From contig JBCAQO010000002.1 of the NCBI GenBank assembly GCA_039111635.1, positions 3,720,001 to 3,784,000 of the forward strand: DNA of 64,000 nucleotides. The letters run 5' to 3'. Each line of letters opens with the position of its first letter. Position 1 is the stretch's first letter. Below are positions 20,769 to 26,273 of this stretch, piece after piece. The DNA comes from Heterobasidion occidentale. Taxonomy: Eukaryota > Basidiomycota > Agaricomycetes > Russulales > Bondarzewiaceae. The position numbers and the translations under genes are program-made. The notes under the pieces were generated by a model. It searched no databases, had not been told where the DNA came from, and worked only from the letters and a program-made list of their open reading frames with translations.

Positions 20769-21602
20769 TGTTAGGACCGCGTCCTAACACGTGCTTCGCA
20801 CGTGAATGGATGGGCTGGTCAAGTGCTTCGGACTTGTTGCAGACTCGGACCGCTTTCCATGACTCCTTACCATTTACATGCTGATGCATGAACGCTGACT
20901 TCTAGTTCCTGATTCTTGATGTGGACAGACATTGGATCCTGACCCCCGTTCCTGGTTCTTGATCGATCGAAGATGTGGATGGACATTAGTGATCGGATTA
21001 CTATATTTGGATACATGGCAGGTCGATGAGGCATTCTAGCTTATGGATCTCGATCGTTGACTTCGGTACCTGAGAAGCGCACGGACCAGATCTTGATCCT
21101 GCCCTAGACACTTCTGTACGTAAATAGCCGAGATGAGCTTCTAAGAAGCTCAGCTCGTTCACCTGTAATACACTCGATCTCTGCACTGCACCCGGCGTCT
21201 GGCTACCTTCTTAGCCCACGCTTCGTGATCTCTGTCAGATCTGAGAACCTCTCTGCACGGTCTGACGAAGCACTGGACTCGTCTCCCTTCCCTCCCCTCC
21301 CTCTACTCATCCGCTTCTATACCGGGCTAGCTGCCTACCGCGTTCTCAGTTGGACACCCCCTCGTGTCATCTGTTGGACAGGAGAAGATCATCCGGTTCC
21401 TCCTCATCATCGAGAAGACCTCGAAGATCACCTTCTCAATCTCTTCGAGAACAAAGCCGACAGCGACCCCGAGTTCCTCGAAAGAGCCCAAAGACGATCC
21501 ATCGTCTTCATCCATTGGAGTCTACGACTATACGAACCAGTGGAGGTTTAGCCTAGGGACCCCTTCGTGCATCGGTGCACGTGATAGGTCTCCGACCTAA
21601 CA
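20769..21602 (+). repeat. LTR B2, inverted relative to B1 and B3
   Basis: An 834-bp family B LTR in plus orientation, almost identical to the reverse complement of B3. It starts with a perfect inverted repeat (TGTTAGGAC / GTCCTAACA) and a second hairpin CACGTGC-TTC-GCACGTG. The left neighbour is the RT of element D and the right neighbour the RT of element B, both broken at about the same domain position. Flanking five-base words do not match, so this is not a simple insertion. Confidence 0.9.
21225..21551 (+). CDS. AUG-less ORF inside LTR B2 (108 codons)
   Basis: Intact copy of the family B LTR ORF, described at LTR B1. Confidence 0.4.
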   Translation: MISVRSENLSARSDEALDSSPFPPLPLLIRFYTGLAAYRVLSWTPPRVICWTGEDHPVPPHHREDLEDHLLNLFENKADSDPEFLERAQRRSIVFIHWSLRLYEPVEV

Positions 21603-23099
21603 CATCCATTAGTGAAAAGTATACGGCTTCGGCCAGAAGGTCCAGTAATTCTTGAATTATCGGCAAAGGGTACTTGTTCTTGATCGTTATTTCATTGAGT
21701 TTGCGATAGTCCATTACTGGTCGTAGTTTCCCGTTCTTTTTCTTGATGAAGAAGAATGGGGATGCCATGTGCGATTTGGATTCTCTGATGAATCCTTTCT
21801 GGAGGTTTTCGTCTATGAATTTCTTGAGTTCCACTTGCTCTCCAGGGCTAAGACTGTATAGCTTGGGTTTGAGCGAGTGATCCATTCCTTCTTTGATTTC
21901 TATTTTGTGATCCCAAGGTCGAGAGAGCGGTAGCTGTCCCTTTGGTCGACCTTCGAAAACCTTTCTATAATTCCAGTATTCCTTCGGTACTATTTCTTCG
22001 AAGGATAGTTCGGGTTTCCCTTTGGCGGCTTCTTCTGCCAGTCTTTGCGAATTGGTGTGCTTTGTTTGTTTTCCTGTCGGTGCTTTGACAGGTTTGCTTC
22101 CTTGAGCCGGTGTGTTGGCGTATGGAAGTTCAGTGGTTTCGGCGCGATGTATATCGACGCCTTCTTCGGAGTCGTTGTATAATTCCAGTGCCTGTAATGT
22201 TCCCGTATCTAGGCATCTAACGAGGTAGACTCCATCTTCTTCAAGATCCTTGGAGGGAAGTGCCGGAAGTCCATCACCGTCCTCCGGAACGTCTTCTTCA
22301 GCCCATGTCGGAACCTTATAATTTCTGGTTCGGGTCTTCAGACGTTCGGCATTCAACCTTCGAGTTGTGAACTCCGGACTTGTAGGTATTGTCCGCGGAT
22401 GTGGTACTGTGGTGTTTCCCACTTTCCGGCCTGGTACTGCTTTTCCCGGCTTTTGCACTGGTATTGAGTAGTCGCCCCTTTGCGGTACTGTTTCCATGCG
22501 CCGTATGCTTGGTTTAGGACGTCCTGGTTTTCTTGTAGCTCTTCTAGCTTTTACCGGTCCTCCTTTTATTTGGCAGGAGGGCGGGCATCTGGTAAAGTGT
22601 AGCCCGTAGGCATGCCAGTCGACTTCTGGGTTATGTTCTAATAACCAGTCGGTTCCTAAAATGACGTCCTCTTTTCCTATTTCCGCGATATAGAATCTTG
22701 CTGATTCTGTATGCGACCCCCCTTTTTCGCCTAAAACCTGTAATTTGAGGTTGGCGAATCGTGTAATGGGTCCTCCCTTGAACTCGGTGTTCTGGACCGT
22801 ACTGACTGGGATAGGGGTGGGGGTTTTGTGTGTAGTGATTCAATGTGTTTCTACGAAACGAGGGTGCATGAAGATTCCAGTGGCTCCACTGTCCACTAGT
22901 GCCTGTGTAGCAGCTTTTCTATTCTTGCCTATGAGCATTGTCTCGAGTCGGAGTGATGGTGCACCATGTGATTTCATTTCCGAAAGATACAATACATCTG
23001 GATGTCCATGCTCTTGGTCAGCATCTTTACTGGCCAGAGGAGCATACCGATTTCCTGCAAGAATCCTACTCTCCACATCCGCTGCCGATGGGAGAGGCC
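21603..23099 (-). pseudogene. protease and N-terminal RT of element B, truncated
   Basis: After the gag stop a retropepsin with A-L-V-D-S-G-A-T-G (near 22900) is followed by G-T-D-W-L-L and a linker, then by RT with K-K-K-N-G-K-L-R-P-V-M-D-Y-R-K-L-N. The frame breaks near 22840 and is restored by 22497. RT stops at S-L-M-D-V, the catalytic Asp of motif A, where LTR B2 begins. The palm (Y-M-D-D), RNase H and integrase are missing. Confidence 0.87.
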
Positions 23100-24119
23100 T
23101 TAAAAATTCTTCGAGTCGCTAAAGGCTCGAACTTCCTCGATTTCTTCCATGCTGAGTCCCATCATCATCTGGCGGATGTGGTTGACTCTGTTTTTTCCTT
23201 CTTCGACGTCTTCATCGTCGAATTGTCCTTCGTCCATTTCTGCTTCGCGCACTGGTCTGCGACGAGGGGGCTGGAATCTTCTCTTGGGTCGAGAAGGACA
23301 GTTGCGCGCCATATGCCCGGGCTTCTTGCAAAAGAAGCACTTGCCTTCTTTGGCAAGTCGATCTCTCTCCGCCGGGGTAAGCTTCTTGAAGCGAGTTCGG
23401 ACAGCGTCGGCCTCCATTTCCGCTGCATCTACATCCATAGGTTCGTATTGGGGCTCCCTATCGTGCCTTGGGGGTGCCCTCTCGTCGTAAAAGGTACGCG
23501 GAGTGTAGATTTGGAATTTTCCTTTTCGGAGGTCGTATGCTCGGTCCCTTGCGATGCGCATTCTTTCGTGTTTTTTGGCCTTCTCGATTAGTTCTTCCCA
23601 TGTCCCGTCTGCAGAGGGATCTTCATAAATTCCTTTTGCCAACTCCCACTTGAGTCCTCGCAGGAAATGGGTTTTCTTGGTTTCTCCGTCTACACCAGCA
23701 AGTGCTGCGAGCTGTTCAAACAGCTGAAGGTAGGTGTTAAATGATTCCTTTCCCTGATTGACTCGGGCTAGTTTGTCACGAGCATCGGCTTCTTTGTTGA
23801 ACTCCTCGAAGTCGGTGGCTATCTTTTTGCGGACGGATGTGAAGCCGACTGTGTCTGCCCAAGTGTATTTGTTCCAATCCTTCAGCGTGTTCCTGGCCTG
23901 CGTAAAGTTTCTTGCCCATATTCCTGCTGAGCCTTCCTTCATGTATGATAGAGCGTAAGCGATTTTGGCGAATTCGTTCGCATAATCCTTCTTCCTAGCC
24001 AGGAACATTAAATCGATTTCGTGGAGGAATTGCTCGGTTCGTTTTCTGTTTCCATTGAAGGTGGTGGGTTTGGCCATAGCTGGTCCCTTGGACTCATTAC
24101 CTCCAGTATCTGCCGACAT
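23100..24119 (-). CDS. Gag of element B (339 aa, complete)
   Basis: The only complete gag in the window. The ATG at 24119-24117 is the first AUG after 1,771 nt of inferred leader. The N-terminal half is a capsid fold (F-N-G-N-R ... F-L-H-E-I-D, Y-A-L-S-Y-M, W-A, F-x-F-N, L-R-G-L-K-W-E). Near residue 265 lies the knuckle C-F-F-C-K-K-P-G-H-M-A-R-N-C, followed by a basic Arg-rich patch and an acidic end. It forms the virus-like particle and packages the element RNA. The stop at 23100 separates it from protease. Confidence 0.88.
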   Translation of the reverse strand: MSADTGGNESKGPAMAKPTTFNGNRKRTEQFLHEIDLMFLARKKDYANEFAKIAYALSYMKEGSAGIWARNFTQARNTLKDWNKYTWADTVGFTSVRKKIATDFEEFNKEADARDKLARVNQGKESFNTYLQLFEQLAALAGVDGETKKTHFLRGLKWELAKGIYEDPSADGTWEELIEKAKKHERMRIARDRAYDLRKGKFQIYTPRTFYDERAPPRHDREPQYEPMDVDAAEMEADAVRTRFKKLTPAERDRLAKEGKCFFCKKPGHMARNCPSRPKRRFQPPRRRPVREAEMDEGQFDDEDVEEGKNRVNHIRQMMMGLSMEEIEEVRAFSDSKNF

Positions 24120-25427
24120 TGTATCGGGCGGGGGCTCTGGATCGTCAGGTGGTTCCGGATTTCCACTTGGTGCTTCAAAATACTCCGGTTCGGGGACAAA
24201 CTCCGGTGTTGTGGCTCGGAAGTCTTCTTGGGGAGTGGTTTCCTGTAAGGGGGATGTAGCGGGCGTGTTTCTTCTAGAGATTCGACTTCCACTGGCTGTG
24301 TCTCTGGGTAGAGTATGTATGTGCGGTCTTGGCGAGTCACGATGCCTATTTGCCGGTGATTCAGGCTTGTCGAAGGTCTTTCTTGCGACGTAGTCCTCGA
24401 CCTTAACAAGGTGTAGGTCGGGTCCTGCGTGGACTGTTTTTTCTGCCCAAGTCGGGTATTCGTATCTGCTTTCTCCTCGTTTATGGAAGAATCCGGTGAG
24501 GATTCCCGCGTAGTAGAAGTGTGCTTTCCTTTCGTCGTAATAAAGTTGATCTTTGTCGACGTCTTCGGGTAAATCTCCGTAGACTTCTGCTTGTTCTGTT
24601 TCTTTATCCGGGATGTTATCCCTCTGCGACTTCGTCCGTTTTCTTTATTCTTTGAAGAAGAAGGGTACTGCCTGTCTTCTTCCTGCCTGTAGTGCTTCCT
24701 GTAAGTCTGGGTCCCTTTTGATAATTTCGTTGATGGAAATATCAATTTGGTCGATGAGCTGGATGATCTCGGAGAATGTGTGCCCGAGATGAGGGTCCGG
24801 AGATGATAAGTTTTGTGGGCGAACTCTCCTCTTCTGACAACAAAAACGATCCCTTCAATTTCTGTTCGGACTGGTGGGAGTTAGGAGCTTCCAGTGTGTT
24901 TTCCTAGGTTGAGGAGAAGGTCCAGTGGATGAGGATTGAGACGTGGTCTCTGTTCTCCTTGGTCTTGACAAGTTCCGCTCTGATTCCGTCTGTGTCGATA
25001 TTCCTTGCGATGGTTCTTCTGAGATCGGGGATAACGGCGACGGGGAAATCGTCTGGTCTTCCGTCGTGTATCTCGACGCAGTTCCTTGCTCTGATGACGT
25101 CGGGCTCTCCGTTGTCTGTGAGGGTGAACGGTGTCTTTGGTTCGTTGATGAAGCAAATCCCGGAAAATCTATATCCAGTGTGGAGGAGGTCTATAAATAT
25201 TTCGGGTGCTTGTTGTAGCCTGAGTGTGGCTATTCCTGAATAAACCTTTCCTGGGTTCCGGTGTCTTGCGACTTCTATAGCTCCGGGGTGGTTTATTCTT
25301 CCTTGAGGAGTCGCTGCTGGGGTGGCCGTTAGGTTTACCCTGTTGGCAATTGCTAGAATGTTGTTGACGGATGAGAGAAAGAGCTGTCGCTGCTGGGGAT
25401 CCAGCTTGAATAGAGTAGGGATAAAAG

Positions 25428-25437
25428 AGCTCGTTCA
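25428..25437 (-). promoter_or_regulatory. self-primer binding site of element B
   Basis: The sense strand reads TGAACGAGCT two bases after the LTR end. It is the complement of AGCTCGTTCA in the LTR at 25890-25881. Same design as element A. Confidence 0.75.
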
Positions 25438-25439
25438 AG

Positions 25440-26273
25440 TGTTAGGTCGGAGACCTATCACGTGCACCGATGCACGAAGGGGTCCCTAGGCTAAACCTCC
25501 ACTGGTTCGTATAGTCGTAGACTCCAATGGATGAAGACGATGGATCGTCTTTGGGCTCTTTCGAGGAACTCGGGGTCGCTGTCGGCTTTGTTCTCGAAGA
25601 GATTGAGAAGGTGATCTTCGAGGTCTTCTCGATGATGAGGAGGAACCGGATGATCTTCTCCTGTCCAACAGATGACACGAGGGGGTGTCCAACTGAGAAC
25701 GCGGTAGGCAGCTAGCCCGGTATAGAAGCGGATGAGTAGAGGGAGGGGAGGGAAGGGAGACGAGTCCAGTGCTTCGTCAGACCGTGCAGAGAGGTTCTCA
25801 GATCTGACAGAGATCACGAAGCGTGGGCTAAGAAGGTAGCCAGACGCCGGGTGCAGTGCAGAGATCGAGTGTATTACAGGTGAACGAGCTGAGCTTCTTA
25901 GAAGCTCATCTCGGCTATTTACGTACAGAAGTGTCTAGGGCAGGATCAAGATCTGGTCCGTGCGCTTCTCAGGTACCGAAGTCAACGATCGAGATCCGTA
26001 AGCTAGAATGCCTCATCGACCTGCCATGTATCCAAATATAGTAATCCGATCACTAATGTCCATCCACATCTTCGATCGATCAAGAACCAGGAACGGGGGT
26101 CAGGATCCAATGTCTGTCCACATCAAGAATCAGGAACTAGAAGTCAGCGTTCATGCATCAGCATGTAAATGGTAAGGAGTCATGGAAAGCGGTCCGAGTC
26201 TGCAACAAGTCCGAAGCACTTGACCAGCCCATCCATTCACGTGCGAAGCACGTGTTAGGACGCGGTCCTAACA
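25440..26273 (-). repeat. LTR B3, 5' LTR of element B
   Basis: An 834-bp LTR. It is followed on the right directly by the copia 3' LTR remnant and on the left by the primer site of element B. The inferred R start is 25890, with only a weak TATA-like GTAAATAG about 30 bp upstream. Confidence 0.9.
25491..25817 (-). CDS. AUG-less ORF inside LTR B3 (108 codons)
   Basis: Intact copy of the family B LTR ORF, lying in the transcript leader of element B. Confidence 0.4.
   Translation of the reverse strand: MISVRSENLSARSDEALDSSPFPPLPLLIRFYTGLAAYRVLSWTPPRVICWTGEDHPVPPHHREDLEDHLLNLFENKADSDPEFLERAQRRSIVFIHWSLRLYEPVEV

Follow-up and report, generated by a model that had tools for sequence, protein, structure and literature searches.

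An AUG-free leader with putative CUG-started genes ahead of gag in a long terminal repeat retrotransposon of Heterobasidion occidentale

Why should an RNA leader of 1.77 kb contain not a single AUG? The question is raised by element B, a long terminal repeat (LTR) retrotransposon on the minus strand of a 64,000-nucleotide stretch of Heterobasidion occidentale DNA (contig JBCAQO010000002.1, positions 3,720,001 to 3,784,000; the whole stretch is called the window and its positions are counted from 1). The initial annotation of this DNA had offered two alternative explanations, selection for scanning ribosomes reaching gag and leader peptides made from non-AUG starts. Comparison of the copies of the element supported both at once. 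The leader was found to be coding and not a spacer, as three open reading frames (ORFs) in it are under amino-acid constraint. It is probably a polycistronic region from which AUG is kept out in every frame, and in which ribosomes would reach gag by leaky scanning through CUG-started genes.

Scarcity of AUG in the leader of element B

No ATG was found on the minus strand in the 1,771 nt between 25890, the inferred start of transcription, and the gag ATG (24119-24117), which bears out the initial annotation. The nearest ATGs bordering the leader are that of gag and one upstream at 25909-25907. The sense strand is A/C-rich and poor in TG, GT and AT. Dinucleotide-preserving shuffles gave an expectation of 10.6 ATGs, and none of 3,000 shuffles reached zero. 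The earlier expectation of about 28 is the uniform figure of 1/64 and was too high, given how rare TG and AT are on the sense strand; the conclusion of depletion is unaffected. Of the 64 trinucleotides, none was more strongly depleted on this strand than ATG (z -4.0). The opposite strand, previously described as ATG-rich, does carry 27 ATGs and is at its shuffle expectation of 25.3. The mean for a 1,771-nt piece of the whole window was 29.6 on the plus strand and 27.0 on the minus strand. The upper boundary of the ATG-free stretch was sharp, with 12 sense ATGs in the 383 nt of U3 versus none in the 451 nt of R-U5 (Fisher P 8e-5).

The transcript start at 25890, taken from the initial annotation, was supported by a complementarity within the element. 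The putative 5' end of the transcript and self-primer (25881..25890, minus strand, AGCTCGTTCA) is the exact complement of 25437-25428, the self-priming primer-binding site just inside the LTR (25428..25437, minus strand, TGAACGAGCT). Both predicted folds, minimum-energy and centroid, paired the two (z -2.5 for 491 nt). Both were present in their common form in 37 of 45 copies, two of the other eight having no data there. With 25890 as the putative RNA 5' end, element B has the self-priming arrangement of the Tf1/sushi group. The first RNA bases of Tf1 of S. pombe are likewise complementary to its primer site, and the same has been proposed for Tcn1 of Cryptococcus (PMC7175516). The match is 10 nt in element B versus 11 in Tf1. 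The frame of Tf1 starts soon after its primer site; element B, unlike the Tf1/sushi elements, has a long AUG-free coding leader ahead of gag.

The scarcity of AUG was found to extend to the family. Forty-five copies (L numbers) were aligned from the transcript start to gag: the best 30 by score of 84 gag matches, six from an LTR search, two from a search with the leader frame ORF1 and seven more diverged copies, among them L066 and L067, chosen also for a stop-free gag. Repeat fetches of copies already taken, seven loci in all, were excluded. Since L056 and L059 lack the 5' end, 43 complete leaders were counted, those of L070-L072 with only approximately cut 5' ends. ATG was absent from 24 leaders and occurred one to four times in 16; only three old, decayed copies (L070-L072) were close to the chance level, with 10-16. 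The leaders of L066 and L067, which are 87% identical to the window copy, have no ATG, and their gag ATG is kept, as it is in 42 of the 45 copies.

ATG-creating variants were counted in 41 copies against an expectation from the observed mutation spectrum, with CpG treated separately. In the leader, private variants of this kind were at expectation (14 seen, 15.0 expected), whereas those found in at least three copies were depleted (5 seen, 13.4 expected; Poisson P 0.008; Fisher P 0.017 versus private variants). The corresponding values in gag were 5 seen and 8.2 expected for private variants and 11 seen and 7.4 expected for shared ones. Leader ATGs thus arise freely after insertion and are under-represented among those passed on, which supports the proposed selection for scanning ribosomes reaching gag. 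Synonymous recoding of the leader ORFs gave 7.6 (L034) and 8.9 (L033) expected out-of-frame ATGs, and none was seen; the same recoding of gag was near expectation (10 seen versus 9.0, and 14 versus 10.9). The absence of AUG in all frames, and not only in the coding frame, points to scanning ribosomes.

The sense strand of the window-copy leader also lacked the splice donor GTRNG (0 versus 3.5 expected, 9 of 600 shuffles; 18 on the other strand), as if splice sites had been purged along with AUG. One GTRNG is present in the leader of L066 (65 of 600 shuffles).

Reading frames and candidate start codons in the leader

Constraint on the leader frames, all on the minus strand, was expressed as w, the nonsynonymous/synonymous (N/S) ratio relative to expectation, with variants counted against the majority base. 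The LTR ORF (25491..25769, 92 codons) lies within R-U5, from a candidate start CTG at 25769-25767 (GCACTGGAC) to a TAG, and gave w 0.45 for all variants and 0.10 for those in at least three copies, the latter from small numbers (N/S 3/12). ORF1 (24904..25404, 166 codons) extends from a candidate start CTG at 25404-25402 (AAGCTGGAT) to a TAG at 24906-24904 and is intact in the window copy; its w was 0.43 for all variants and 0.36 for shared ones (at least three copies). ORF2 (24645..24894, 83 codons in intact copies) extends from a candidate start CTG at 24894-24892 (ACACTGGAA) to a TAA at 24647-24645 and is broken in the window copy by private 1-nt deletions near 24879 and 24783. Its w was 0.48 for all variants, 0.18 for shared ones (N/S 10/23) and 1.36 for private ones. 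For comparison, gag gave w 0.11-0.18 (0.11 for shared variants), and the other frames of the same stretches gave w of at least 0.78 for shared variants. The stops were near-invariant: that of the LTR ORF is TAG in 42 of 43 copies, that of ORF1 is present in all 45 (43 TAG, 2 TAA) and the TAA of ORF2 in 41 of 45, with an alignment gap at its last base in the remaining four. The proposal of non-AUG leader peptides is supported by these three constrained frames in an AUG-free stretch, in which initiation would have to occur at near-cognate codons.

Between ORF2 and gag the gag frame is extended upstream of its AUG (24120..24644), with a candidate start ACG at about 24639-24637. The extension was weakly constrained in the gag frame (w 0.75-0.82), its first half giving 0.64 for shared variants. 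The second half had w 0.34 in the +1 frame; constraint in that frame covers about 24383-24034, and the frame runs into gag to 24008. The whole overlapping +1 frame (24008..25178) has 390 codons in intact copies and a strong-context CTG at 25178-25176; its product is uncertain. On the minus strand, constraint thus leaves the gag frame for the +1 frame just before gag and returns soon after the gag AUG. This switch at 24034-24383 is compatible with a frameshift, a separate start or overprinting.

The layout of the frames downstream of the primer site was examined in five copies. In the intact ones (L033, L034 and L066) ORF1, its TAG, an 86-codon ORF2 region, its TAA and 513-514 codons of extension and gag follow each other in one frame; ORF1 is frame-shifted in L041 and L067. 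Extension and gag had no internal stop in 41 of the 84 scored gag matches. A single gag-frame extension as the whole story, as suggested by a 514-aa frame, was rejected, as the window copy has three private 1-nt deletions in its leader (near 24879, 24783 and 24641) and other copies have ORF1, ORF2 and extension as separate frames in line with gag.

Candidate start codons were examined in the majority sequence of 41 copies. Four CTGs of the leader have a purine at -3 and G at +4, one close to the 5' end of each of four frames: the LTR ORF in its constraint-defined extent, ORF1, ORF2 and the 390-codon +1 frame. They were unchanged in 39 of 39, 40 of 40, 41 of 41 and 40 of 41 copies, respectively, and with four further copies they were kept in 41 of 43, 44 of 44, 44 of 45 and 44 of 45. 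The ACG of the extension, in the same context, was found in 39 of 41 copies and in 41 of 45 of the larger set. Constraint on the LTR frame begins at its CTG: N/S was 21/6 upstream and 38/39 downstream (Fisher P 0.013; 0.002 for variants in at least two copies). Frame-shifting indels just upstream of the ORF1 CTG are common to groups of copies, one of them being an insertion 4 nt upstream in five copies; the frame is therefore not kept there. Near-cognate starts, CUG included, are reported to be used in Neurospora and Cryptococcus, and ACG is also among the fungal ones (PMC5487733, PMC7049704). An initial reading that the ACG after ORF2 had turned into ATG in three copies was wrong, as this holds for L062 only. 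A CpG four bases beyond that ACG gives an ATG at 24635 in L052, L059 and L062.

A homologue of ORF1 was found in a public protein record (P0001), with 65% identity over 97%; both lack an internal Met. P0001 was not accepted as showing that ORF1 starts at AUG, as its first Met falls at a TTG of the element B family primer site. It is suspected to be a TTG start written as Met by the gene caller, and P0001 was used only as a homologue. ORF1 had at least 150 scored matches in its own genome, fragments included. Pfam gave no match for ORF1, ORF2, the LTR ORF or the +1 frame, and P0001 had no match in Pfam or PDB. No relatives of P0001 were confirmed in viral contigs, and no homologues of the extension were found among 249 candidates. 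Pairwise comparison found no kinship among the LTR ORF, ORF2 and ORF1.

Proposed leaky scanning and rival explanations

The absence of AUG together with the conserved ORFs led to the leaky scanning reading. Ribosomes would load at the RNA 5' end and scan, and a minority would start at each strong-context CUG to give a leader protein (LTR ORF, ORF1, ORF2 and possibly more). The remaining ribosomes would pass on to the gag AUG 1.77 kb downstream, with no AUG intervening. A new AUG in the leader would be expected to capture most ribosomes and starve gag, and would tend to vanish from lineages still transposing.

Several observations weigh against this reading. The excess of strong-context CTGs is mild, 4 versus 1.6 expected, and 42 of 600 (L034) and 36 of 600 (L031) shuffles reached 4; in L066 there are 5 versus 1.5 expected (10 of 600 shuffles). 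The LTR CTG is missing in the most diverged copies, L070 and L072, and the ORF2 CTG in L070, at places where the alignment is uncertain. Many copies have broken frames: the LTR ORF was intact in 25 and broken in 18 of 43, with 17 frame-breaking indel events of which 3 are shared, ORF1 was intact in 33 and broken in 11 of 44, and ORF2 intact in 30 and broken in 15 of 45. No intact CTG-started ORF1 is present in L041, L042 or L043, three copies that may go back to a single source. The +1 frame was intact to its stop in 19 of 45 copies, which makes its first part doubtful; its last 111 codons were open in 35 of 44. The constraint estimates are counts against a majority base and not tree-based dN/dS. 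Amino-acid constraint may partly cause the depletion of shared ATGs, yet the depletion is not seen in gag, where constraint is stronger. Finally, three ATG positions (25064, 24511 and 24635) are each found in three copies, perhaps by recurrent CpG changes.

It also speaks against leaky scanning that the starts of ORF1, ORF2, extension and gag lie in one frame in 23 of the 44 copies with data. This arrangement, and the presence of the ORF1 stop in all 45 copies, would fit stop-codon readthrough, by which one protein would start at ORF1, a fraction of the ribosomes would continue through TAG and TAA into an N-terminally extended Gag, and the AUG at 24119 would give the main Gag. The in-frame 3-nt deletion next to the TAA in L066-type copies, which retain the stop, points the same way. 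In the majority sequence a near-cognate codon flanked by A at -3 and G at +4 comes 6-9 nt after each stop (CTG in 44 of 45 copies, ACG in 41 of 45), for which readthrough has no use. It is also the +1 and not the gag frame that is constrained in the second half of the extension, and the missing out-of-frame ATGs are left unexplained; we regard readthrough as rather unlikely. Internal entry or a ribosome shunt was considered improbable. The pairing of 5' end and primer site would place the cap near the ORF1 CUG, which lies 24 nt past the 10-bp duplex seen in both predicted folds, and most of R-U5 would be skipped; rice tungro bacilliform virus (RTBV) indeed shunts ahead of leaky scanning (PMC5902531). 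Against this, the lack of AUG in R-U5 and the constraint on the LTR ORF there suggest that ribosomes scan R-U5.

The leader might also be a decaying former coding region of no present function, its AUGs absent mainly because of A/C-richness and an ancestral protein without Met. The base composition of the leader (A/C-rich, poor in TG and GT), the weakly constrained extension and the many copies with broken leader ORFs agree with this. Decay was nevertheless judged very improbable: out-of-frame ATGs are absent too, shared variants in the LTR ORF, ORF1 and ORF2 are constrained, and ATG-creating variants are depleted when shared and not when private. Introns are common in fungal genes, and nonsense-mediated decay is a plausible reason to avoid upstream AUGs. 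Splicing might accordingly remove most of the leader and leave gag behind a short one, the AUG deficit having another cause such as escape of unspliced RNA from nonsense-mediated decay. The initial annotation had named a spliced leader as an objection to its reading. Among five copies searched for consensus donors only, GTRNG was absent from L031, L033 and L034 and occurred once each in L032 and L066, where shuffles gave 3.4 (L034), 3.5 (L031) and 3.8 (L066), and introns need be neither AUG-free nor coding. Leader splicing is thus unlikely, and as an account of the missing AUGs it is a most improbable one.

Leaky scanning through an AUG-free coding stretch, the reading preferred here, has a parallel in RTBV (Caulimoviridae). 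About 10% of its ribosomes start at the AUU of ORF I, and the rest go on scanning through about 900 nt of ORFs that lack AUG (PMC5902531). Like RTBV, element B has a long coding stretch without internal AUG in any frame. In RTBV the first ORF starts at a non-AUG codon and ORFs II and III are reached by leaky scanning (PMC5902531); in element B the CUG candidates are conserved and would serve the same purpose. RTBV, a plant pararetrovirus, has a single AUU start and a leader that is structured and shunted (PMC5902531), whereas element B is a fungal LTR retrotransposon with a leader about twice as long and several CUG candidates, one within R-U5. The likeness is one of mechanism and not of descent. 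In Neurospora cpc-1 the frame is extended upstream by more than 700 nt of conserved sequence ahead of the main AUG, with conserved near-cognate starts such as CUG and ACG (PMC5487733). The leader of element B resembles it as a long conserved coding sequence before the main AUG with near-cognate candidate starts. Unlike cpc-1, with AUG upstream ORFs and one extended protein, it has no AUG and several separate frames (PMC5487733).

A fuller scheme may be proposed, which we regard as possible rather than probable. The genomic RNA would be a true polycistronic message for three to five separate CUG- or ACG-started proteins, one of them inside R-U5, with 1.77 kb purged of AUG and gag as the first AUG gene, and the self-priming duplex may switch the RNA between translation and reverse transcription. 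No AUG-free coding leader of an LTR retrotransposon was found in the open-licence literature, as judged by title and start of abstract. Self-priming and leaky scanning through AUG-free ORFs are each known; on the same basis, no LTR retrotransposon that combines them and has a gene inside R-U5 was found. If correct, leaky-scanning polycistronic expression, as described for plant pararetroviruses, would extend to fungal LTR retrotransposons. Leader genes would then exist that AUG-based annotation misses, and ordinary gene finding in such fungi is predicted to overlook conserved retrotransposon proteins. The at least 150 ORF1 matches in one genome amount to a natural mutation experiment, in which private changes are those tolerated after insertion and shared changes those allowed by transposition.

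Structure of the element and of the window copy

Element B, whose protein relatives are basidiomycete, is a Ty3/gypsy-type LTR retrotransposon, with TG...CA LTR ends, short target duplications and the order gag, protease, reverse transcriptase, integrase. Its 5' LTR in the window (25440..26273, minus strand) has 834 nt, TGTTAGG...CCTAACA, with U3 at about 26273-25891 and R-U5 at 25890-25440. The gag gene from its AUG (23100..24119, minus strand) encodes 339 aa with Retrotrans_gag and a CCHC knuckle; in Pfam the 514-aa gag frame matched PF03732 (3.9e-07) and PF00098 (8e-06). Three of five Heterobasidion matches were examined, and gag was 72, 67 and 74% identical to HETIRDRAFT_326778, _316098 and _329954 of Heterobasidion irregulare, with matching starting Met. 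A protease and partial reverse transcriptase frame (21553..22839, minus strand) is interrupted by a second, inverted LTR (20769..21602, plus strand), whose U5 end is joined directly to reverse-transcriptase sequence. The window's own protease-reverse transcriptase frame had no Pfam match; frames of a longer copy holding the same protein text matched gag-asp_proteas and RVT_1, and the domain order in L073 was gag-asp_proteas, RVT_1, Integrase_H2C2. No RNase H domain was seen in the Pfam scans of element frames, and no chromodomain in three scanned frames of L074, a frame-broken copy of which these are part of the frames.

The genome search for the LTR, in which 40 of 527 candidates were scored, gave at least 41 matches covering at least 831 of the 834 nt and one fragment in the 45-Mb genome, both window copies included. 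Several LTR pairs lie about 9.55 kb apart. Direct flanks of 5 bp were found at 7 of 30 fetched LTR loci (L006, L012, L013, L015, L019, L020 and L023), many of the 30 being LTRs of longer elements.

The window copy is truncated and consists of LTR, leader, gag, protease and part of reverse transcriptase, followed by the inverted LTR. Its inverted arms are perfect over 835 nt (20769-21603 and 25439-26273), and no 5-bp duplication was found at the outer ends of its LTRs. Auto-integration of the element's own cDNA might give such an arrangement at 20769-26273, with opposed LTRs, a junction of U5 and reverse transcriptase and no 5-bp duplication. In L016 a reversed gag (about 1-1503) abuts the U3 end of an LTR (1501-2333), after which a normal leader follows. 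An inverted LTR lies about 8 kb from it (L022), and the whole resembles another product of this kind. About 2 kb with open frames (L074:1363-3350) lie between integrase and the 3' LTR of a full-length copy, a position where other elements carry env-like genes, and one of these frames has a weak CCHC knuckle (E 0.08, below the Pfam cut-off).

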